Shown here piece after piece: positions 42,065 through 53,210 of a stretch of DNA of 64,000 bases (its first letter is position 1; the number at the start of each line of letters is the position of its first letter). The DNA comes from Bdellovibrio sp. NC01. Lineage in GTDB: Bacteria; Bdellovibrionota; Bdellovibrionia; Bdellovibrionales; Bdellovibrionaceae. The notes below the pieces were generated by a model. That model was not told the origin of the DNA, did not search any database, and worked only from the letters and a program-made list of their open reading frames with translations. Where the stretch lies: the NCBI RefSeq assembly GCF_006874625.1, contig NZ_CP030034.1:3782001-3846000 (forward strand). The letters are read 5' to 3'. The translations under genes were made by a program, and so were the position numbers.

Positions 42065-42934
42065 ATGCAGAACTCAACATTGGACAGCTCATTCGTAAAT
42101 CGCTTGAAGCAAATTTTAGCTAGCCGCTATGGGAAGGGTTTGCAGATTCGTCAATTGATGGATCTGTCGGAGCTTCAATCAGATGAAGATGCATTCACGC
42201 GGGGGCGTGACTTGCACGTTCCAATCAAGGTCAACGGCTCGTATTTGGGGACGGCCGTTGTTCCTTCTGCTGATGACCTTAATCAAGAAAAACGCCAAGG
42301 GGTCACACAATTAATTCGCATGGTTTTAGAACCTGCGATGTACAAATGGTACCTTGATCAACGTGAATCCAATTTGATGGAGATTTCTAAAGCAAATTTG
42401 AATTTAGAAAACGTGCATTTGTTCGCAGAAGAAATGCCTTCCATCGATGAGCTTTTAAAAGAAGACAACGATACAGCCCAAAGTCGAGGTTTGGATCTTA
42501 TTTCCCACCTTATTCACTTGGAAGGTCGTTCAGAAACTACTAATAAAAAAGTAGCTTTGCAGCTGCATGAAATGACAGGCCGTTGGGCTTTCGTTCCATT
42601 CAACGACATTAAAGGTCAACTGCACTCTTCATTCGATATTTGCAAACTTGGTGCAATGACAATCTTTATCGAAAACGTTGAGTCTTTGAATGCCGCTGAG
42701 CAAGAGCTTTTGATGGATTATCTTTCTGAAGATCATCTTTCAGACGAGCCATTGGTTATCACAAGCACGAATCTTAAAGCGGACGAGTTACAACAAGTTG
42801 AAGCCTTAGGTGCAAACTTACGTGACGAGCTTTCTGTGAACTGTTTCGAGGTAGACCGTGCGCCTTTATCGACACAAGGCCTGAAGGAAGTTCTTGAATT
42901 GTTCTTCATGAAAGATGCCCCGGAAAACGCATAA
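42065..42934 (+). CDS. Degenerate sigma-54-activator-like protein without ATP-binding motifs or DNA-binding domain
   Basis: 289 residues. The first 130 residues resemble a small sensory (GAF/PAS-like) domain. From residue 196, 'GAMTIFIENVESL', 'DEPLVITSTNL' and 'LRDELSVNCFEVDRAPL' line up in order with 'GTFFLDEIGDTSP', 'VRIVAATNRNL' and 'FREDLYYRLNVINIRVPPL' of the activator encoded just upstream. Walker A, the GAFTGA loop and the helix-turn-helix are absent, and the Walker B acidic pair is EN. I infer a decayed AAA+ paralogue that may regulate by binding. It lies 39 bases before the AmgK-like start, in the same operon. Confidence 0.7.
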   Translation: MQNSTLDSSFVNRLKQILASRYGKGLQIRQLMDLSELQSDEDAFTRGRDLHVPIKVNGSYLGTAVVPSADDLNQEKRQGVTQLIRMVLEPAMYKWYLDQRESNLMEISKANLNLENVHLFAEEMPSIDELLKEDNDTAQSRGLDLISHLIHLEGRSETTNKKVALQLHEMTGRWAFVPFNDIKGQLHSSFDICKLGAMTIFIENVESLNAAEQELLMDYLSEDHLSDEPLVITSTNLKADELQQVEALGANLRDELSVNCFEVDRAPLSTQGLKEVLELFFMKDAPENA

Positions 42935-42973
42935 CTCTTGATAATCTCATGAGTGTCTGTGAGAATTTTTCTT

Positions 42974-43993
42974 ATGGTCACTCATGATGAATACTTAGTT
43001 CCATTTTTAAATCGTTCTATTAACTCGGACGCATACAAAGTCTTCTCTCTAGCCGGGGATGCTTCCAATCGCCGCTACTACCGCGTGGTTCTTGACCAAC
43101 ATTCTTGGGTCTTGATGCGCTGGGAACCTTTTGATCCGAATAACTATCCATTCTTGAGTGTCCTAAATCACTTCGCTAAAAATGGCGTGCACGTTCCGCA
43201 TGTCGTTGCAATGTCACCTGAAGAAGGCTTGGTCCTTCTTGAAGATCTTGGTGATTTAACGTTAGAACGCAAATTTTGGGAAAGCCAAACGCAAGAAAAC
43301 TCGATGGAGTTTTATAAAATGGCCGTTGATGAAATCGTTAAGATCCATCACCCTGCCACTTTGGATAAATCAGAATGCACGGCTTTCAAAATCCAATTCG
43401 ATACTGAAAAATTCTTGTGGGAAATGAACTACGGCAAAGACAATCTTCTTTCCGGCGTTTTAAAATTCCCGTTCAACGACAAAACCAATAAAGAAATTTC
43501 TGACATCTTCTTGGATGTGTGCACGAAACTTCATAACGAGCCAAAGCGCATTGCTCATCGCGATTATCATTCTCGCAACTTGATGATCAAATTGGATCAG
43601 ATGACTGTCATCGATTTCCAAGATGCACGTTTGGGTCCGATTCAGTATGACCTTGTCAGCTTGATGCGCGATTCTTACGTCGATATGAACGATAGTATGG
43701 CGAAAACTTTGATCGATTATTACCTGGATCAATCAAAGCAGTATTTGCCGAAAGATTTTTCGCGTGAACACTTCGATCGCATCTATGAATTGCAATCTAT
43801 TCAACGATGCTTCAAAGCGTGCGGCAGTTTCGCCAGCTTCTATCACTTACGCCAAGATAAACGTTACCTGAAATATCTTTCAGGGACTCTTCGTCGCGTA
43901 ATGAAAGCCATCAACGAATTCCCAGAATACAAAATGTTCGCGGATGTGTTGATTGACTCTGGCGCTCTTGAAAGAAAGTACGAAACTCTATGA
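42974..43993 (+). CDS. amgK: AmgK-like sugar kinase (N-acetylmuramate/N-acetylglucosamine 1-kinase)
   Basis: 339 residues from ATG at 42974 (an in-frame GTG at 42953 is possible). The aminoglycoside-phosphotransferase fold is shown by an early 'GDASNRRYYRV', the catalytic loop H195-R-D197-Y-H and the metal site D214-F-Q-D217. The 'GDAS(N/F)RRY' start and the coupling by ATGA to a MurU-like gene are typical of AmgK. That enzyme makes MurNAc-1-phosphate from free MurNAc, the first step of the recycling route that bypasses de novo, fosfomycin-sensitive synthesis. Cytoplasmic. Confidence 0.85.
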   Translation: MVTHDEYLVPFLNRSINSDAYKVFSLAGDASNRRYYRVVLDQHSWVLMRWEPFDPNNYPFLSVLNHFAKNGVHVPHVVAMSPEEGLVLLEDLGDLTLERKFWESQTQENSMEFYKMAVDEIVKIHHPATLDKSECTAFKIQFDTEKFLWEMNYGKDNLLSGVLKFPFNDKTNKEISDIFLDVCTKLHNEPKRIAHRDYHSRNLMIKLDQMTVIDFQDARLGPIQYDLVSLMRDSYVDMNDSMAKTLIDYYLDQSKQYLPKDFSREHFDRIYELQSIQRCFKACGSFASFYHLRQDKRYLKYLSGTLRRVMKAINEFPEYKMFADVLIDSGALERKYETL

Positions 43994-44988
43994 ATCTGAT
44001 GCTGCTTGCAGCGGGTGAAGGCACGCGCCTTCGCCCTTACACTCATCAATTGCCGAAGCCTGCTATTCCATTTTTGAATTTGCCACTGGCTTCACACTCT
44101 TTGAGTTTTTTAAACGACATTGCAATTGATAAGCTTGTTGTTAATACGTTTCATCTTCCTGAAAAAATCCACTGTCTTTTCCACAAAATTCCCCATGGCG
44201 CCAAGGAACTTATTTTTTCTGACGAGGTCGGCGAAATTCTTGGTAATGGCGGTGGCTTAGGCAAAGCTCGTCAGCACTTTCACGGTGGCGGCGACTTTAT
44301 CATGATGAATTCGGATGAAGTGATCCTGCCGAAAGATGCTGATGTCCTTAAAAAAGCTATCGCCCAGCACAAAGCTTCAGGTGCACTAGCCACTTTGATG
44401 GTGATGGATCATCCAGGCGTGGGTACTCAATTCGGTGGTGTGTGGGTCGATTCGAAGGAAAATAAAGTTCGTGGTTTTGGTAAGACTGCGATCCCCAATA
44501 CAGATAAAGCTTGGCACTTCATCGGTGTACAAATTCTTTCAGAACGTATTTTCCAATATATTCCGTCAACGGGCGCTTCTAACATTCTGTATGACGGCGT
44601 GGCTGCTGGAATCGCACAAGGTGAGCTTGTACAGGTATGTCCTTTTGAATGCTCCTGGTTTGAAACTGGCAATATCAAAGACTTCTTAGAGGCTTCAGAA
44701 AAGTGTTTGGGATATTTGATGTCTTCTGAACCATCTTCTGAAAAAGCGGCTTTGGAACGTGCGTTTCAACGTTATGCAAATGGCAAGATGATCACCCAAG
44801 ATTTTGCGGGAGCTCACCTGCATTTTTCTAATGATGCACGCATCGATAATAATTCTAAATTTGAAGGCTTCGTTTGTTTCGCGGAAGGCAGTCGCTTGCC
44901 GAAGGAATGTAAGCTTAAGAATGTGATTGTCGGTGAAGGTGTGTCTGTGGCCCCAGGAACTGAGGCCGAAAACACTTTGCTGCTTTAA
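43990..44988 (+). CDS. murU: MurU-like sugar-1-phosphate nucleotidyltransferase
   Basis: 332 residues. The N-terminal nucleotidyltransferase signature is 'AAGEGTRLRPYTHQLPKP' (residues 7-24), and 'GNGGGLGKA' and 'FIMMNSDEV' follow. MurU converts MurNAc-1-phosphate to UDP-MurNAc. This protein is about 100 residues longer than Pseudomonas MurU, with a C-terminal segment rich in short strands ('LKNVIVGEGVSVAPGT') like a left-handed beta helix, so the exact sugar should be held open. The context with AmgK and a NamZ-like gene favours MurNAc salvage. It meets the converging gene with no gap. Confidence 0.8.
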   Translation: MNLMLLAAGEGTRLRPYTHQLPKPAIPFLNLPLASHSLSFLNDIAIDKLVVNTFHLPEKIHCLFHKIPHGAKELIFSDEVGEILGNGGGLGKARQHFHGGGDFIMMNSDEVILPKDADVLKKAIAQHKASGALATLMVMDHPGVGTQFGGVWVDSKENKVRGFGKTAIPNTDKAWHFIGVQILSERIFQYIPSTGASNILYDGVAAGIAQGELVQVCPFECSWFETGNIKDFLEASEKCLGYLMSSEPSSEKAALERAFQRYANGKMITQDFAGAHLHFSNDARIDNNSKFEGFVCFAEGSRLPKECKLKNVIVGEGVSVAPGTEAENTLLL

Positions 44989-46185
44989 TTATTTATAAAG
45001 CAGATATTTCTTACGTTCTTTATCCCAAGACTTTTCATCTTTAAGCAAAGCTTTGTCTAAATCGGCAGGCTTTGCATTTTTGTTTTCGATCCAATCTTTT
45101 AATTCTGGTCCACCGTTAATCACGTTGAACGCCAATTTATCTTTCACGTACTCATAAGCAAAATCGCGATAGATTGGATAGTTCGGGTAAAGCTCTCTGA
45201 TAACTTTTAACATCAACGCCACTAAACGGAACGGTTTAAACTGTTCGTGTTTGTAAGCGATACTGTCCGTGTGGAATTGGAAACCGTGGCACAATTTTCC
45301 AACGTGCTTGTGGAAAGTCGGTTCAAAGAAACATTCACGCAACACAACGCCTTTGTGCCATTGCGGAGCTTTCTTTTTCATCTCTTTCAAAACTTTTGCG
45401 AAGTCGATATCGGAAGCGCCAATGATTTCTAGCGCACGAGTCGTACCGCGACCTTCTGAAAGAGTTGTGCCTTCAATCAATACTGTGCCTGGATATGCTC
45501 TGGCCATATTTAGCGACGCTGCATTTGGTGAAGGATTCACCCACGGGCGCTTCATATCCCAGCCATAGCCAGGAGCTTTATTCGGAGCATAGCCCTTCAT
45601 TTTCACAACTTCTAAATCAAGATTTAATTTGTAGTGATCTTTGAAGTACAGCGCTAGCTCGCCCACAGTTAAACCATGGCGCATTGGAATTGGTGCGGCA
45701 CCAACAAATGACTCCCAACCTTCACGCATACGGAAGCCTTCGATCACGCGGCCCGCTGGATTGGGTCTATCAAGAATGATGATTTTTTTATTTAACTTTG
45801 CGCATTCTTCCATCACGTAAAGCAATGTTGTGATGAAAGTGTAGATACGGCAGCCAAGGTCTTGCAAATCGAAAAGAACGACGTCGAAGTGGGACATCAT
45901 CTCTGCAGTCGGTCTGCGAACTTCACCATACAAACTGAAAATTGGAATTTGATGAACAGGATCAACGAAGTTTGGGCTTTCGATCATATTGTCTTGTTTG
46001 TCGCCACGAACACCATGTTGTGGACCGAAGGCGCATGACAACTTGATTTTTTTTGAAAGTAAATCCAGGCTGTGTTGCAAGTTTTCATCGACACTCGCTG
46101 GATGACAAATCAATCCAACTTTTTTGCCTTTAAGTGCTTTTAATTTTTTGCTGTCGCTTAGTAAAACTTCAAGACCCAACTTCAT
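44989..46185 (-). CDS. namZ: DUF1343 protein, NamZ-like exo-beta-N-acetylmuramidase
   Basis: 398 residues of the DUF1343 family: 'KVGLICHPASVD', 'FGPQHGVRGD', 'VVLFDLQDLGCRIYTFITT' and 'IILDRPNPAGR' appear in the usual order. Characterised members (NamZ) remove terminal MurNAc from glycan fragments. Here the motif near residue 55 is P-Q56-H-G where many members have PEHG; I recall a subfamily with Gln, so activity should not be assumed. It has no signal peptide, so it is probably cytoplasmic. A ribosome site AAAGGAA precedes the ATG. It converges on the MurU-like gene. Confidence 0.85.
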   Translation of the reverse strand: MKLGLEVLLSDSKKLKALKGKKVGLICHPASVDENLQHSLDLLSKKIKLSCAFGPQHGVRGDKQDNMIESPNFVDPVHQIPIFSLYGEVRRPTAEMMSHFDVVLFDLQDLGCRIYTFITTLLYVMEECAKLNKKIIILDRPNPAGRVIEGFRMREGWESFVGAAPIPMRHGLTVGELALYFKDHYKLNLDLEVVKMKGYAPNKAPGYGWDMKRPWVNPSPNAASLNMARAYPGTVLIEGTTLSEGRGTTRALEIIGASDIDFAKVLKEMKKKAPQWHKGVVLRECFFEPTFHKHVGKLCHGFQFHTDSIAYKHEQFKPFRLVALMLKVIRELYPNYPIYRDFAYEYVKDKLAFNVINGGPELKDWIENKNAKPADLDKALLKDEKSWDKERKKYLLYK

Positions 46186-46260
46186 GATGCAAATTCCTTT
46201 TCGCTATTACGCGTATTAGTCTAACGGGAATTTGATTGTTGGTTAATCTTTTTAATGAAA

Positions 46261-46283
46261 AAAGCGGGTTCGTGACCCGCTTT
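46261..46283. terminator. Terminator ending the TadG-like/Gly-rich operon
   Basis: AAAGCGGGT pairs with ACCCGCTTT over a 5-nt loop. On the minus strand the stem is followed by a run of T (CTTTTTTCATT), placing it just after the stop of the gene ending at 46295. Confidence 0.85.
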
Positions 46284-46294
46284 GTATTTAGAAC

Positions 46295-47329
46295 TTATTT
46301 TTGAAGTGCGATGTCGCCAGGACTAAAGAATGACTCTTGGCTTTCTTTCACTTTGTAGCGTCGACTCATCATCAAGAAGATACTGTCAGCGGCAACACCA
46401 ATCGGTTCGCCATTATAGTTTTTCGACATACCCGCAAGACTTGAAGGATCGCGATCAAGACCGAACTTACCAGCACCGGCTCTACCGCCAGCACCTGCCC
46501 CTGCGTAATCGCTGGAACCATCACCACCGGAAGCGCCATTATCAAAACCAGCTCCACCGCCGCCGCCACCTTCTTCGTAACCGTTAGCTGCAGTCGCTGC
46601 ACCGATTTTAATTTTGTCGACTTTTGCGTAAGCTTTTTTCTCTGCCTCTGACATTGCATCCATCGCACCAGCGATCATACCTGATGGGAAGCCCGCCGCA
46701 GCCATCGCAGCTTGTGAAGAAAAGTCTGATGCTTTGTAGGTTTTATCGCCAACTTTGAAGGTACCCATTTTAGGGTCGTAAACCCCTTGCTTTTCAATGC
46801 TCTTCAATGTGTCAGGAACTTTTGTATACGTCGGATCCTTTGAAGTTAATGTCTCGTAAGGATTTTCAGTGCCTGAACCAGTTCCGCTCAAACCACCAAA
46901 ACCGTCAGTTTGAAAACCTGTCACGCCCGCAGACCCTGCAGCACCACTATGGTCACCACCCTGCGCAATATTGGTTAACCCCATTCCCACTAGCATTGTA
47001 CCCATCATAATTTGTGGTGTTCCTGCCCCGCACTCACATGAAGCATTCTGAGCAATTCCAGATCTAATCATCATACCGCCGGTAACTACTTGAATACCAC
47101 CAGTAAGCTTATTGATCGCTGAAGCTTTGCTATTACCACTTCCAGATTGATCGGAACCGTCTTTCACGCTTGGCTGCGCTGAAGTCCCTGTAGGAGTTGT
47201 ACCATTCTCAACACCAGCACTACCGGTATTTTTAGTTGTGGGCACTGAAGACACTTGCGTTGCAAGGCCGATTGCTGGTGCAAACACCAAACTAAATGCA
47301 CATAGGCTTGAAAGAAATAATTTATACAT
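46295..47329 (-). CDS. Exported Gly/Ser-rich protein, third gene of the TadG-like operon
   Basis: 344 residues with a signal peptide ending near residue 23 (GLA). The mature chain is low in complexity: Ser/Thr/Gly-rich at 25-70, a hydrophobic Gly/Met-rich middle (about 75-125, with 'NASCECGAG'), then long glycine runs near 255-295 ('EEGGGGGGAGFDNG'). The last 40 residues are more ordered. Glycine-rich stretches of this kind occur in surface and matrix proteins. No family recognised. It follows the second gene by 12 bases. Confidence 0.75.
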   Translation of the reverse strand: MYKLFLSSLCAFSLVFAPAIGLATQVSSVPTTKNTGSAGVENGTTPTGTSAQPSVKDGSDQSGSGNSKASAINKLTGGIQVVTGGMMIRSGIAQNASCECGAGTPQIMMGTMLVGMGLTNIAQGGDHSGAAGSAGVTGFQTDGFGGLSGTGSGTENPYETLTSKDPTYTKVPDTLKSIEKQGVYDPKMGTFKVGDKTYKASDFSSQAAMAAAGFPSGMIAGAMDAMSEAEKKAYAKVDKIKIGAATAANGYEEGGGGGGAGFDNGASGGDGSSDYAGAGAGGRAGAGKFGLDRDPSSLAGMSKNYNGEPIGVAADSIFLMMSRRYKVKESQESFFSPGDIALQK

Positions 47330-47341
47330 CAGTCCCGCCTT

Positions 47342-48820
47342 TTAGTTATTTAGCAAAGTTGTATTGTTATCACGATAACGGTCACGAACTTTTTCCCAGT
47401 TCGATTTACCGCCTTGGCCCGTAACTTCTTTTGTCCAATTGCCTTGGCCAGCCATTTTATTTGGATCTTGCGCACCACCTGGCAAGTAACCACGAAGTTT
47501 GGAATCAGAAGAGCCCGAGCCACCGCTCATACCCCAACTTCCTCCACCGCCACCACCGCCGGAAGCGCCACCAAGAATGTTTGCATCAAGACCTTTTTTT
47601 CCATTCGCATCACCAGTCGGAGCACCAGTGCCGGAACCTCCGCCACCACTACCACCTAAACCAGCACCACCGCCCATTGGCGCACCTGGAGCACCACTAC
47701 CAGATGAATCACTAGCTACTTTTCTTTCATCACCAGCGGCAGCGCCGCCAGAAAGGTCTGCACCACTTAATCCATTTTTGTTCGCTGAATTTGCATTTGG
47801 CGAAGAAAGAGCTGACATAGTTCCAATTGTAGAGTTCTCTCCAGCCTTTTGCAGACCATTCGCACAACCCGGCAAACGTGGGTTTGCTATACACAAGCAT
47901 TCAGGCAACTGAGCATTTTCTGGCTTCGAACATTTTTCAGCAGTATCCGCTGTCGGAGTATTCGCCGCAGTCGAGCTACCGTTTGTCTCATCACCACACT
48001 GTTGCGCTTGATTCAAGCTACGCACAACAGACAAGATACCAGTGCCCGCCGAAACTAACATATCACCATACGTATAAGTACATGCTTTATTTTTCGAAGC
48101 TATTGATTTTGGTAGAGTAGCTTCTTTTTCGTTAGTTTCTTTAGAGGCAACCTGGACAATTGTTTTTATATTTGTTGTGAACGTATTCTTATAATTTGAG
48201 CATGCACCTGCTTGAATATCTTCACATGCACCAGTCATCTTCGAAGCCAGATCATTAATTTGTTTGATATTATTAAAGACCGTTGAACAAGAACTTTCAC
48301 AAGACGCTCTTGCTGCTGAACATGCTGCAGTATAAGCAGTGAGACCCGCCTGAGCCATGGTCATTACTTTACCAAAAGTATCACAAGCGTCTTTTACTGC
48401 TACAGTATTAAACAACGCCATCAAGGGGTTAATTTTATTCAATGTATTTTGTAAATCAGGGCTTGTTTCTTCACGACATAGCCACTTAGCAGTCGCTTGG
48501 GTCTTTACACACGTACCATGTAAGTTTCCGTAATATGAGGCTGCACTCGATAACTTTTCGATTACTGGCAACTCATCTACCTTTCCATCCACTACAGCCT
48601 TAGCTGCCGTCTCAATCGCTTTTACAGCTGCAACCAAGTTCTGTGCATCTTGTGTATAACCCTCAGGACTCGTAGGGTCTTTAATAGCAGATCCTCCAGC
48701 AGTAGACGCTGGAGTATCACCTTTGGTAGCTGAATCATTTGCTGTCGGATCAGCAAACACGACGGAATTTAATGCAGTCACGCACACAAATATAGTGAGT
48801 AACACACCAAACTTTTTCAT
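47342..48820 (-). CDS. Exported Cys-containing, Gly-rich protein, second gene of the TadG-like operon
   Basis: 492 residues with a signal peptide (MKKFGVLLTIFVCVTALNSVVFA). Residues about 50-300 are helical with many cysteines ('ACSAARASCESSCSTVF', 'CEDIQAGACSNY'), suggesting a disulfide-braced helical domain. Residues about 360-450 are glycine/serine-rich with several GGG runs, and a charged tail follows ('NWEKVRDRYRDNNTTLL'). Similar architecture to the next gene suggests related roles. No known family. Confidence 0.75.
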   Translation of the reverse strand: MKKFGVLLTIFVCVTALNSVVFADPTANDSATKGDTPASTAGGSAIKDPTSPEGYTQDAQNLVAAVKAIETAAKAVVDGKVDELPVIEKLSSAASYYGNLHGTCVKTQATAKWLCREETSPDLQNTLNKINPLMALFNTVAVKDACDTFGKVMTMAQAGLTAYTAACSAARASCESSCSTVFNNIKQINDLASKMTGACEDIQAGACSNYKNTFTTNIKTIVQVASKETNEKEATLPKSIASKNKACTYTYGDMLVSAGTGILSVVRSLNQAQQCGDETNGSSTAANTPTADTAEKCSKPENAQLPECLCIANPRLPGCANGLQKAGENSTIGTMSALSSPNANSANKNGLSGADLSGGAAAGDERKVASDSSGSGAPGAPMGGGAGLGGSGGGGSGTGAPTGDANGKKGLDANILGGASGGGGGGGSWGMSGGSGSSDSKLRGYLPGGAQDPNKMAGQGNWTKEVTGQGGKSNWEKVRDRYRDNNTTLLNN

Positions 48821-48904
48821 AAGAAGATTCCCCTATACCCTAACTTTTCGGACAAAAGTCAGACAATCTTGAGGAATTGTGGAAGTGTATCAAAATAAGA
48901 CGAA

Positions 48905-51100
48905 TTAAAAATCTTCAGGTGGAGGGTTGAGCAAGCGACCCGCACTTGTTCCTTCGCCACCCAATTTAAGCTCTTTAGAGTTTAGCCAATCAGAAGAAAT
49001 CATCTTCACACCAAAACCAGTTGAACCACCAACAACGCAATTCCCAGGATTCGGTACGCCCGCAACAGGTTCGGTATCACATTTGCCAAACGTGTTTGGA
49101 TTCAAAGAGTAATCCATAAGATTTTTATCACTCCAGCCCGTAAGCAAATGCTTCCAATCATCAAGAGTGAAAGTAAACAATGATTTTACCGGAAGATTGG
49201 AGTCAGGAATTTGCGCCACTTCGGCCATCTGATCTTTCACAGAGTATTCTTCTAAATTGATCGCGCCAGCTTTGTAGCCTCTGTGATAGCCAAGATCAGG
49301 TCTAAACTGATTCGCAACGGCAGAACCTACTTTAGAAATGAAACCTTTTTTCATTCTGTCATAATAATTATGATAGAAATCTGGTTCGATTGAATAATAA
49401 GCGTTGTCGAACGTATTGGGCACGATCGCCGAAAGTTCTAACTTACGCATCTCTGTAGGCATGTTAGAAATAGAATCCCACGCCATTTGATCACCGGATC
49501 CGCCAGAATCAGCAAACTTGTAAGGTAGTGCATCCCAGTCCGCAAAATTTGGAGACGACTTAGATACACCAGCGTTCGGATCATTATAAATCGCTTGATA
49601 ACGACTAGAGCGCCACACAGGTGAAGTTTCGTAAATTGCCTGTCCATAATAACCAATCATTTGAGCCGACTTCAAGCCGTAGGGATCACCAACATAGCGA
49701 CTATAATTTGCGGCGCGTGTTTTCATATTATTTGGATCAGTAACTGTACCCGCAACTGCGCCAGGATCTGTAGGACGAGGAGGCAACATTGGATCTACGA
49801 TTGTTGAGCCATCAGAATATTGGTTGTCAGTTTGTCTGAAACTCCAACTGTTGCGATACCAAGGACCGATTCTTCCGCCAAAAGGTTTAAAGAAAGCTCG
49901 AGCTTTCAAAGTCACTTTTCCAAAAGGAGAAAAAGGAATAGCAGGTTGAGTTTCCGCCGACGCGCCAACATATCCTACGCACCAAGGATTTTTCTCGACA
50001 CCCATTGAGAAGTTAAATGTATCGTTGAGATTTGAAAGATACCCAATACTCTGTGCTAACTCTTCTATGCCACTAACAAAAGCCGTTTGAGTATAATGCG
50101 CAGGTAAACTATTTGGATCGCCCGCAAGTTCTTTAGCCACTGTATCGATGGCGCCACCGTTTGAATTACCCTGACATACAGTGTCGATGTATGAAAATCC
50201 TGGATAAATTTTGATAGGACTAAGCCACTTAACAGGGCGATCTTTATCTGTAGTTTTCCCACAAGCAGCACTGCCCAGAGAGTTATAAGTCTTGAAGCTG
50301 TTTACCGCTCTGCGATTTGGAACTGTTAAATTGTTCTGAAATGTATTCTGCATGCCGACCTTAACCGATTCACCATCAAGGTCATAAAAATCTTCTTCGT
50401 TCGCGCTCATTGCTTTTGCAAGTTCATTAATAACAAGCATGCGATCACGTTGGTCAGTTTTAAATGCGACAACGAACTTCCCAAGCATCAAATAATTGAA
50501 AGATCCGAAATCTCTACAGCGCTCAAGAGCTTTACTGATCAACATATCACTGACTGATTTCATTGTGCGCGTGATGGACAAGAAACCAAATACTTTCGGA
50601 GCACGGAACAAACTAATGGATGATTGCTCGGCCATGAACTTACAGGTGTTTTCGTCTTTAGGCATCGGTTGAAATGGAATGTAGGTAATGCAAAACGCCG
50701 GCGCATCTTGCATATTAACCATAGGACCGGATGATGATACGCCCTCGACCGCTAAAGCAGTTCTTAACTGAGCGGTACTTTTTAAATAAGGGTGATAAAT
50801 TGATTCCCCCGCACTACCCAACATACGATAACGCCACGCTAGCAGTTTCCAGCTTTGGCGAATTTGATAATTCATGTGTCCGATAGCGTTTAGATCCTCT
50901 GCTTGTTTCGCGGCACCATAATATGCGGCAAGGTCGACGGAGTTTTGGAGATTGATTTTGTGGTGAACTAGCAAGCCGACGTTGATGACCATCGCAAAAA
51001 ACAAAAACAGCACCTGAAAAATCAAAGCAACGAACAAGGCGACTTGGCCTTTGCGATCTCGAAGCTTGAATAAAAAAGTACTGTTGTGGTTCTTTAACAT
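48905..51100 (-). CDS. TadE/TadG-like membrane-anchored protein
   Basis: 731 residues. The N-terminus has the hallmark of TadG-like proteins: a positively charged start, 'RKGQVALFVALIFQVLFLFF' as a single membrane helix, then 'NLQNSVDLAAYYGA', where pilin-like pseudopilin processing or assembly signals usually lie. The remaining 680 residues should face the periplasm and show mixed composition with many Tyr and Asn. Tad proteins belong to Flp pilus and tight-adherence systems, but no tadA ATPase, tadB/C or secretin gene is seen here. It heads the operon. Confidence 0.8.
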   Translation of the reverse strand: MLKNHNSTFLFKLRDRKGQVALFVALIFQVLFLFFAMVINVGLLVHHKINLQNSVDLAAYYGAAKQAEDLNAIGHMNYQIRQSWKLLAWRYRMLGSAGESIYHPYLKSTAQLRTALAVEGVSSSGPMVNMQDAPAFCITYIPFQPMPKDENTCKFMAEQSSISLFRAPKVFGFLSITRTMKSVSDMLISKALERCRDFGSFNYLMLGKFVVAFKTDQRDRMLVINELAKAMSANEEDFYDLDGESVKVGMQNTFQNNLTVPNRRAVNSFKTYNSLGSAACGKTTDKDRPVKWLSPIKIYPGFSYIDTVCQGNSNGGAIDTVAKELAGDPNSLPAHYTQTAFVSGIEELAQSIGYLSNLNDTFNFSMGVEKNPWCVGYVGASAETQPAIPFSPFGKVTLKARAFFKPFGGRIGPWYRNSWSFRQTDNQYSDGSTIVDPMLPPRPTDPGAVAGTVTDPNNMKTRAANYSRYVGDPYGLKSAQMIGYYGQAIYETSPVWRSSRYQAIYNDPNAGVSKSSPNFADWDALPYKFADSGGSGDQMAWDSISNMPTEMRKLELSAIVPNTFDNAYYSIEPDFYHNYYDRMKKGFISKVGSAVANQFRPDLGYHRGYKAGAINLEEYSVKDQMAEVAQIPDSNLPVKSLFTFTLDDWKHLLTGWSDKNLMDYSLNPNTFGKCDTEPVAGVPNPGNCVVGGSTGFGVKMISSDWLNSKELKLGGEGTSAGRLLNPPPEDF

Positions 51101-51222
51101 TTGCGTTTAAACATTGTCTCTTATCGAGGGCTTAGAGGCAATAACTCGACCTCGAAAACTTTGACTTGTTCTATAGTGAGATGACAGACTTTTAGCCATA
51201 GTTCTAAGGAAGGAACTCGACA

Positions 51223-52086
51223 ATGGTCCGTAAGTTCATCGCAGTCTTTCTAGCTCTCGTATTATTGCCGCTGAGTTCTCACGCGGACGTCCTCTTTGAA
51301 GGTTATTCGAAAATTATTTCGGGTGACCAACATATTGGCTATGTGATCAGCCGCTACGAATTTGACTCTAAAAAGAAGCAATTCCTTTCAACATATATTT
51401 TAAAAACCGGCAAAGGCGCGACAGAGACAACAGAAAGTCTTAAAGCCGTCGCCGATAGCGAACTTGCGCCCATTTCTTACGAGTACACGAGTTTAGCAGG
51501 TAAGGAAGTCAAAACCATCGACGCGAAATTCAAAGGTGGCAATCTTAATGCCCTCATGAAAACGAACGGTAAAATCCAGCGCATCGAAAAGAAAATTCCT
51601 AAAGGCACATTCTTATCAACATTCTTGGTGTACTTGATGTTGAAAAGTAAAGAAGGCTTAAGATCAGAAACAAAATACGAATACCAAGCAATTGCTGAAG
51701 AAGATGCCGCTATTTACAAAGGCCAAGCCCTTGTTGGTAAAGAAGAAAACTTCAACGGCTTTAAGGCATTCAAGATCTTAAACACCTTCAAAGATCTTAA
51801 ATTCCTAAGCTACGTGAATGAACGTGGGGAAGTTCTTGGCACAAACGCAATGGCTCAAGGAATCTCCACAGAACTTGTCGGAACTCCCAGCGATGCAACG
51901 GCAAATCTACCTTTTAGCAGTACGATCTTAAAAACTTTGTTCGGCGGAGTGCCTGCGGGAACTCAAAATATCGTCGCACAAAATTTGAAAACAAAAAGCA
52001 CGACGCCAACACCAGGAAAACAAATGGGTGTTCCTCAAGGTGAAGGCATTAACATCAAAGCTCAGCCAGATAAAAGCGGACAGTAA
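51223..52086 (+). CDS. Secreted protein of unknown function upstream of nagZ
   Basis: 287 residues with a signal peptide (to about residue 21, SHA). The mature part is strand-rich ('FEGYSKIISGDQHIGYVISR', then repeated beta segments), somewhat like DUF3108-type periplasmic proteins, though I am not certain. The last 35 residues are Pro/Thr/Gln-rich and probably disordered. It ends 11 bases before the NagZ-like gene, so both are likely on one message. The ribosome site is AGGAAGGAA. Confidence 0.75.
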   Translation: MVRKFIAVFLALVLLPLSSHADVLFEGYSKIISGDQHIGYVISRYEFDSKKKQFLSTYILKTGKGATETTESLKAVADSELAPISYEYTSLAGKEVKTIDAKFKGGNLNALMKTNGKIQRIEKKIPKGTFLSTFLVYLMLKSKEGLRSETKYEYQAIAEEDAAIYKGQALVGKEENFNGFKAFKILNTFKDLKFLSYVNERGEVLGTNAMAQGISTELVGTPSDATANLPFSSTILKTLFGGVPAGTQNIVAQNLKTKSTTPTPGKQMGVPQGEGINIKAQPDKSGQ

Positions 52087-52097
52087 AGGATTCTCTC

Positions 52098-53210
52098 ATG
52101 AGCATGAAATCAATCATCGGCCAGCACATGTTTATTGGTATTTCAGGACATGCACTCACTGCCGACGAAAAGAAATTTATTGTTGAAAATAACATTGGTG
52201 GTATCTGCCTTTTCGGAAGAAACGTTGCCGATCCAAAACAAGTTCATGATCTTTGTGAAGAGATCCAATCGCTTCGTCACAAACAAGAAGACAAAGCTCC
52301 ACTATTTATCGGAATTGATATGGAGGGCGGTCGCGTTCATCGCTTGAAACCTCCATTCACAGTGTGGCCACCACTGCGCAAACTTGGCGATCTTGATGCT
52401 CCGACAGCTTCTTTCCATTTTGCGAATCGCATGGGCCAAGAATTAAAAGCCGTGGGAATTAATTTGGACTTCGCACCGTGCGTGGATGTTTTCACAAACA
52501 CAGCAAATACAGTTATCGGTGATCGCAGTATCAGCGACGATCCAGAAAAAGTAGCTCGCCATGCTTCCGCACTTGTTCGTGGTTACATCAAATCTGACAT
52601 CATCACTTGTGCAAAACATTTCCCCGGTCATGGCAACACGATCGTTGATAGCCATTACGATTTGCCTGTTGAAAATCTAGATATCGACAGACTTGAAAGT
52701 TTGGAACTTATCCCGTTTAAGAAAACTTTTAAATCACGTGTTGATATGGTGATGACTTCGCATATCAAGTTCCCAAAAATCGATCCCGATTGGCCAGTGA
52801 CTCTGTCAGAAATCTTCATCAAAAAAATTATTCGTGAAGAGTGTCGTTATCGCGGTCTGGTGATTACAGACGATTTGGGAATGAAAGCGATGGCAAGTCA
52901 CTTTGGCGTCGAAGAAATCCCAGTGCGCGCGCTGCAAGCGGGTGCCGAACTTCTTCTGTATTGCAATGAACCTGAAGTGCCGCCACAGGCAATTGATGCG
53001 ATCTTGGGCGCAACCGCACAAGGCAGTTTGGATAAAGCGACTCTTGAAGCCAATCACCAAAAGATCCTTGAGTTCAAAAAGCAAAAAATCACTCAGCCTG
53101 AACCACTCCCTATGAGTGAAGTTATTAAAATCGTCGGTTCGCCAGAGAATTTGAAGATCGCAACGGCAATTGCCAACGGTTCAATGCCTGAAGGACTCCT
53201 TCCAGAATAG
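52098..53210 (+). CDS. nagZ: NagZ-like beta-N-acetylglucosaminidase (GH3)
   Basis: 370 residues of glycoside hydrolase family 3. The NagZ signature is 'KHFPGHGNTIVDSH' (173-186): the catalytic pair Asp184-His186 is intact, and the nucleophile Asp should lie in 'GLVITDDLGMKAM'. The position usually Asp in KHFPGHGD is Asn180. There is no signal peptide, so it acts in the cytoplasm, removing GlcNAc from GlcNAc-anhydroMurNAc or GlcNAc-MurNAc fragments. It fits with the AmgK, MurU and NamZ-like genes at 42-46 kb. Confidence 0.9.
   Translation: MSMKSIIGQHMFIGISGHALTADEKKFIVENNIGGICLFGRNVADPKQVHDLCEEIQSLRHKQEDKAPLFIGIDMEGGRVHRLKPPFTVWPPLRKLGDLDAPTASFHFANRMGQELKAVGINLDFAPCVDVFTNTANTVIGDRSISDDPEKVARHASALVRGYIKSDIITCAKHFPGHGNTIVDSHYDLPVENLDIDRLESLELIPFKKTFKSRVDMVMTSHIKFPKIDPDWPVTLSEIFIKKIIREECRYRGLVITDDLGMKAMASHFGVEEIPVRALQAGAELLLYCNEPEVPPQAIDAILGATAQGSLDKATLEANHQKILEFKKQKITQPEPLPMSEVIKIVGSPENLKIATAIANGSMPEGLLPE

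Follow-up and report, generated by a model that had tools for sequence, protein, structure and literature searches.

The closest described relatives of the operon considered here are tip proteins of Tad-type pili. According to the text of Herrou 2025 (PubMed Central, PMC, article PMC12075869), KilN forms the Tip complexes of the Myxococcus xanthus Kil Tad pilus with KilL and KilM, Tips 1-3 are encoded in clusters of their own, and the extra domain of KilN4 combines a large beta scaffold with a pair of long helices, along with small helices and loops. That article also predicts a Bdellovibrio bacteriovorus Tip by structure and calls for further study of the Bdellovibrio Tip, and its introduction tells how in Vibrio cholerae the minor pilin TcpB docks TcpF as tip-borne cargo. 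In Seef 2021, TadG is named as one of the components that the Kil system lacks. The B. bacteriovorus TAD locus has been reported as bd0109-bd0119 (Avidan 2017, PMC5430801); its Flp knock-outs are described as losing predation and keeping adhesion, in contrast to a tadC mutant described as having lost attachment (Duncan 2019). Here we analyze a three-gene operon of Bdellovibrio sp. NC01 that lies within a window of 64,000 nucleotides (contig NZ_CP030034.1, positions 3,782,001 to 3,846,000). Its first open reading frame (ORF), ORF1, is most likely a relocated TadG/KilN subunit, a component that we find missing from a Tad/Kil locus elsewhere on the same chromosome, and it is followed by ORF2 and ORF3, whose products appear to be exported.

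ORF1 and the Tad/Kil locus

ORF1 matches the Pfam Tad family (PF13400) at 35.2 bits over residues 18-64, above the cut-off of 22.3 bits, and no other PF13400 match was found in the whole genome (G000, 3.98 Mb in one contig). All 16 members of an ORF1 alignment (A1) share the Tad match (E up to 0.01), and none matches a type II or type IVa pilin family. The leader is of the prepilin type: over 71 ORF1 sequences (alignment A4, the window sequence plus 70 of the 71 called frames, one locus being omitted), Gly18 is found in 70, Gln19 in 69 and a Lys or Arg before Gly18 in 52, and the leader is net positive in 67. Position +5, which is Glu in most pilins, is Phe in 68 of these sequences and Glu in none, and six Cys are conserved at 93-100%. 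The AlphaFold2 model of ORF1, a confident one (predicted local distance difference test, pLDDT, 91.9; predicted template modelling score, pTM, 0.91), has long helices at residues 8-96 and 174-231 and a mixed part whose strands form a beta scaffold.

These properties recall KilN, which likewise is a large TadG-type protein with a prepilin leader, conserved Cys, two long helices and a beta scaffold, a comparison drawn here with the published text description only; as with Myxococcus Tips 1-3, the gene stands outside the main pilus locus. Unlike the KilN gene, ORF1 is followed by ORF2 and ORF3 and not by KilL/KilM-type genes, and the text of Herrou 2025 describes no such exported partners for KilN. 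ORF1 shares with canonical TadG an N-terminal Tad domain that exceeds the Pfam cut-off. It differs in being encoded away from the tad locus, which is the usual though not the defining place of tadG, and in a C-terminal part that has no further Pfam match above cut-off. Against solved folds, no convincing match to the model was returned by Foldseek (best E 0.58) or by VIA-align 2 (best Z 5.5, root-mean-square deviation 5.3, 101 aligned), nor did the sequence profile match any solved structure at E up to 1; this is no proof of a new fold. NCBIfam likewise gave no match above cut-off for ORF1, ORF2 or ORF3.

The Tad/Kil locus, also called hit, lies at 105.6-113.2 kb of the genome. It encodes TadB, a TadZ-TadA fusion (TadZA), a secretin, RcpC and a 62-residue Flp pilin (Flp1_like), together with three pilin-like proteins of 171, 226 and 108 residues that were named by leader and hydrophobic stretch and match no Pfam family. 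Its pilins carry Glu or Asp at +5, as read from their sequences, and no TadG is found within it. The TadZA protein is 738 residues long (L096:12557-14773), and the fusion is present in 59 of 59 relatives. In holding TadA, TadB, RcpA, RcpC and Flp, the locus resembles bd0109-bd0119, the main text of Avidan 2017 never mentioning TadG or TadE; what differs from that locus is ORF1, which lies outside the Tad/Kil genes and lacks a standout FliA-like promoter. Whole-genome counts gave eight matches to PF00437 and six to PF00482. Among the latter class, a second T2SSF protein at 498 kb has FHA-domain neighbours, a setting that resembles the TadC Bd0470 and the FHA protein Bd0474 as presented in Duncan 2019; other T2SSE/T2SSF genes stand in pairs at 1.46 and 1.55 Mb.

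Relatives supply the genomic link between ORF1 and this machinery. Throughout, the order is Bdellovibrionales (68 genomes) and the phylum Bdellovibrionota (191 genomes). The distance from ORF1 to TadZA was taken in 66 of the 68 order genomes, G184 (no TadZA at 1e-130) and G176 (place unlisted) being left out. The two genes share a contig in 30 of the 66, and in 3 of the 66, belonging to two families, they stand within about 10 kb (gene order read in L183/L074, L201 and L211). In two genomes of one genus (G047 and G041) ORF1 is about 10 kb from TadZA and beside groES-groEL, and in a genome of another family (G194) the distance is about 7 kb, with MurU and AmgK in between. At one further locus (L149) ORF1 is also near groES-groEL, with no Tad machinery in view. 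It is the Tad domain, the leader, the absence of any other Tad-domain match in the genome and the linkage to a Tad locus in two families that lead us to read ORF1 as TadG/KilN.

ORF1 itself is highly conserved. It is present in 59 of 59 near relatives, and its profile matches 68/68 order and 185/191 phylum genomes. Within the order the matches are mostly full length. Outside it, among the matches listed, the profile mostly covers the first 200-300 residues of proteins of differing length, and the distal part therefore differs. In one close relative two separate frames make up ORF1 (residues 3-282 and 276-730; G023:C1:3666320-3668568), the result of either a frameshift or a sequencing error.

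ORF2, ORF3 and their C-terminal tails

The three genes are co-directional on the minus strand, 84 bp separating ORF1 from ORF2 and 12 bp separating ORF2 from ORF3, and the hairpin at 46283-46261 is the sole terminator-like site found within 46150-51300. A three-gene TadG-like operon, as first described by a sequence-only reading of this DNA, is thus real. That reading held that the genes belong together, and their conservation agrees: of the 65 order genomes that have both ORF1 and an ORF3-type tail, 47 place the two no more than 10 kb apart and 18 do not, and at 31 of 52 named ORF1 loci the three genes that follow on the same strand include ORF2 as well as ORF3, with both elsewhere in the locus in 3 more and one of them in another 3. 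The 52 loci are what is left of 80 after setting aside 9 without a called ORF1 frame and 19 more with less than 3.5 kb downstream.

The proteins look exported or membrane-anchored, as had been proposed, ORF2 and ORF3 having signal-peptide-like hydrophobic N-terminal stretches (read from sequence and Kyte-Doolittle values). The glycine and serine runs ascribed to both partners are there (peak Gly+Ser over 60 residues of 62% in ORF2 and 45% in ORF3), and so is the disulfide-rich character of ORF2, in which 12 Cys are kept in 94-100% of 34 sequences, 11 of them in the head at positions 104-310. The hydrophobic parts claimed alongside them hold up less well in ORF3, where the internal ones reach about 1.0-1.1 on the Kyte-Doolittle scale, too weak for a clear membrane segment. 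Pfam gave only two matches below cut-off for ORF2 (E 0.04 and 0.06) and none for ORF3, and only weak matches of single members over the 34 ORF2 and 31 ORF3 family sequences (alignments A7 and A8, each from 42 available sequences with long, second and divergent copies excluded).

The AlphaFold2 model of ORF2 (mean pLDDT 67.9, pTM 0.51) places a helical head at residues 57-312 before a disordered linker (pLDDT below 50 over residues 323-439) and a short helical tail modelled with low to moderate confidence. Compared with solved structures, this model matched helical bundles only, with a best E of 0.043. De novo designs and ClyA chains are mixed among these bundles, and we do not take them as evidence of a toxin. 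A separate set of ORF2 matches falls mostly within its Gly-rich stretch.

Both proteins end in a conserved tail with a similar F/W...RY pattern, which we followed with one profile for the ORF2 type (A5) and one for the ORF3 type (A6). The ORF3-type tail occurs in 65 of the 68 order genomes and, with weak E-values (2.9e-4 to 9.2e-4), in 5 of the 123 others; the ORF2-type tail occurs in 51 of the 68 and in 1 of the 123 (5.4e-4). A direct ORF2 search gave matches in 41 of 59 relatives. Counted at E up to 1, the NC01 genome holds seven ORF2-type tails (ORF2 itself, one each at 1.244 and 3.554 Mb, and a tandem group of four at 538-544 kb) and two of the ORF3 type, numbers too small for a general sorting tail, an idea that we rejected. 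The four tandem paralogues (L063:6297-12236, 538.3-544.2 kb) are 457-467 residues long with 18-20 Cys each and the same tail, and flagellar-type genes follow a few genes downstream of them. Beside chemotaxis-like genes at about 3.553-3.556 Mb (L062:4458-7045) is another ORF2-ORF3 pair, which has no TadG.

Explanations for the operon

We favour, on balance, an explanation in which ORF1 is the relocated tip subunit of the Tad/Kil pilus and ORF2 and ORF3 are its tip partners or cargo. ORF1 would be made with its prepilin leader, cut after Gly18, and would join the small TadE/F-like pilins of the Tad/Kil locus in a tip that starts pilus assembly and touches prey. ORF2 and ORF3 would be exported by Sec, ORF2 folding with disulphides in the periplasm, and the conserved tails behind a Gly-rich stretch would most likely dock both proteins on the tip, where they would act as partners of the tip or as cargo that the pilus shows to prey. 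For these two roles we infer from gene order and architecture, and the likeness to TcpF on TcpB is one of proposed working only, in that secreted proteins would be carried on a pilus tip. A part in prey contact, already suggested by the sequence-only reading, is plausible.

Several observations weigh against this explanation. In NC01 some 249 kb separate ORF1 from the TadZA gene (taking the contig as circular), with peptidoglycan-recycling genes beside ORF1, and in the three genomes in which a Tad ATPase gene is near ORF1 (G041, G047 and G194), ORF2 and ORF3 are not adjacent to it. Neither partner is found in the fetched flanks of 15 of the 52 named loci, the ORF2 tail is absent from 17 of the 68 order genomes, and since the genome has a single Tad match, its six other ORF2-type genes stand without an adjacent TadG. 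Compared by hhalign, the two tail types show a likeness that is no more than suggestive (probability 36%, E 6.6e-5). Co-occurrence of ORF1 with TadZA (59/59 relatives and, at E up to 1e-130, 186/191 phylum genomes, with one genome lacking both) is weak and uninformative evidence because both are near universal. A FliA-type promoter scores 13 of 16 matches before the Tad operon and an unremarkable 9 of 16 before ORF1, where the background mode is 10; control by FliA shared between ORF1 and the Tad operon was accordingly rejected. Before ORF2 the score is 12 of 16, a value reached also by 19 of 500 background pieces.

Outside the order, 17 TadG loci were fetched and read, and 16 of them have no Tad genes and no ORF2 or ORF3 matches near TadG, which again counts against a tie between the three genes and the pilus. 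The exception is G060. Its divergent TadG has 550 residues (Tad 42.9 bits); next comes a Gly-rich ORF2-like protein (A2 profile, E 2.7e-6), and the place of ORF3 is taken by an exported 282-residue protein with no profile match. Upstream of this TadG and on the same strand are two T2SSF frames at about 4.5 kb and a TadE protein at about 14 kb; a TadZA-like ATPase is absent from the 33 kb read. The TadE, T2SSF, TadG and ORF2/ORF3-like genes all fall within 17 kb (L212:12277-13616 and L190:3123-12713). Because 13 consecutive N interrupt the frames in the interval between TadG and the ORF2-like gene, it is uncertain whether a small 174-residue frame there is a separate gene. Across the 17 loci, an HD-type gene is nearby in 13 and a Lys-rich gene adjoins TadG in 7 (L186, L187, L188, L193, L194, L199 and L200).

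Some of these same observations would be expected if ORF1 were the Tad/Kil tip and ORF2 and ORF3 merely unrelated periplasmic or outer-membrane operon-mates, perhaps with a role in envelope upkeep. In agreement with this, the ORF2-ORF3 pair, the tandem group of four ORF2 paralogues and the single fifth one all lie without a nearby TadG; equally in agreement are the separation of the pair from ORF1 where a Tad ATPase gene is near and the peptidoglycan-recycling neighbourhood with NagZ in 47 and MurU in 36 of 52 loci. We nevertheless judge it rather unlikely, given the closeness of the ORF3 tail to ORF1 (within 10 kb) in 47 of 65 genomes, the gap of only 12 bp from ORF2 to ORF3, the single terminator, and the similar gene order, with TadE and two T2SSF frames upstream, in G060, a genome outside the order.

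It is very unlikely that ORF1 is instead the large tip pseudopilin of another type IV filament, a type IVa pilus or type II secretion. Glu5 is absent from tip-most pseudopilins such as GspK, a trait that ORF1 shares, and the T2SSE/T2SSF pairs at 1.46 and 1.55 Mb show that the genome holds further genes of this kind; in Pfam, however, all 16 members match Tad and none a type II or IVa pilin family, and where relatives do show linkage it is to a Tad locus.

The earlier reading had gone further in saying that no pilus machinery accompanies the operon. Within the window this is true (its ORFs, read by eye, and ten genes at and around the locus, read by Pfam, include no recognisable Tad machinery gene), and it holds only locally because a Tad/Kil set is encoded elsewhere on the chromosome. 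From there it had proposed a pilus-independent surface layer or adhesive matrix, anchored in the membrane by ORF1, and had named as one finding that would overturn it a first gene that is a Tad component encoded with pilus genes; 3 of 66 relatives come close to that arrangement, and NC01 itself does not have it. Although matrices can be formed by Gly/Ser-rich exported proteins and the window is free of machinery genes, we drop the independent matrix as the least probable of the explanations because ORF1 has a Tad domain, the only one in the genome, and a prepilin leader, and is linked to a Tad locus in some relatives, because the Tad/Kil machine lacks a TadG, and in view of an ORF2 modelled as a compact helical head, linker and tail. 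None of the results obtained here favoured a surface layer or matrix.

With ORF1 as Tad/Kil tip and ORF2 and ORF3 as its partners or cargo, a bolder form of the proposal can be sketched, which we regard as unlikely as it stands: a 'loadable spear', in which the Kil/Tad pilus of Bdellovibrionota would use ORF1 to carry exchangeable secreted heads of the ORF2 type, docked by their tails on a Gly linker. Equally speculative are the roles that it would assign, in that the Cys-rich helical head might be the part that meets or harms prey, and ORF3 a further and more constant coupler. No description of a pilus that carries cargo by means of a recognisable loading tag was found in the main text of open-licence PMC papers. 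Within that literature the conserved exported pair, its tails and the multicopy ORF2 family are what is new; a tip role for ORF1 may already be known, because the text of Herrou 2025 predicts a Tip in B. bacteriovorus. If ORF1 is that predicted Tip, two unnamed families share its operon across most of the order, and ORF2 and ORF3 become direct targets for testing what the pilus delivers or recognises.

Features and surroundings of the operon

Table 1. Features of the ORF1-ORF2-ORF3 operon in window coordinates.
Feature	Coordinates	Strand	Basis
ORF1, TadG/KilN-like large minor pilin, proposed Tad/Kil tip subunit, 731 residues	48905..51100	-	Pfam, model, conservation
ORF1 prepilin-type leader, residues 1-18 ending in Gly18, Phe at +5	51047..51100	-	alignment of 71
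ORF1 Tad domain, residues 18-64, inside long N-terminal helix 8-96	50909..51049	-	Pfam and AlphaFold2 model
ORF2, predicted exported Cys-rich protein, 492 residues, multicopy family without Pfam model	47342..48820	-	Pfam, family searches
ORF2 all-helical head, residues 57-312, 11 of 12 conserved Cys	47885..48652	-	AlphaFold2 model, pLDDT mostly >70; Cys alignment
ORF2 Gly/Ser-rich linker, residues 323-453	47462..47854	-	AlphaFold2 model and composition
ORF2 C-terminal tail (LPGG...NWEK..RYR)	47348..47506	-	profile A5
ORF3, predicted exported Gly-rich protein, 344 residues, no Pfam family	46295..47329	-	Pfam, composition
ORF3 C-terminal tail (IGVAADSIFLMMSRRY)	46325..46456	-	profile A6
Terminator-like hairpin 3' of ORF3, proposed operon end; 9 pairs, 5 GC, T-rich tail	46261..46283	-	

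One flank of the operon holds NamZ, MurU-like and AmgK-like genes, and the other, divergent flank a gene whose DUF3108 match is weak, NagZ and a TonB-like gene (all by Pfam). These peptidoglycan-recycling surroundings (42065-46185 and 51223-53210) are kept across ORF1 loci as AmgK, MurU and NamZ or a substitute on the one hand and NagZ, often with two permease-like genes, on the other; NamZ itself is a neighbour in just 1 of the 52 named loci. In the short divergent region 5' of ORF1 (51101-51222), the stretch CAAAGTTTTCGAGGTCGAG recurs before ORF1 at two other loci (L065 and L104), perhaps as a shared promoter or regulator site.

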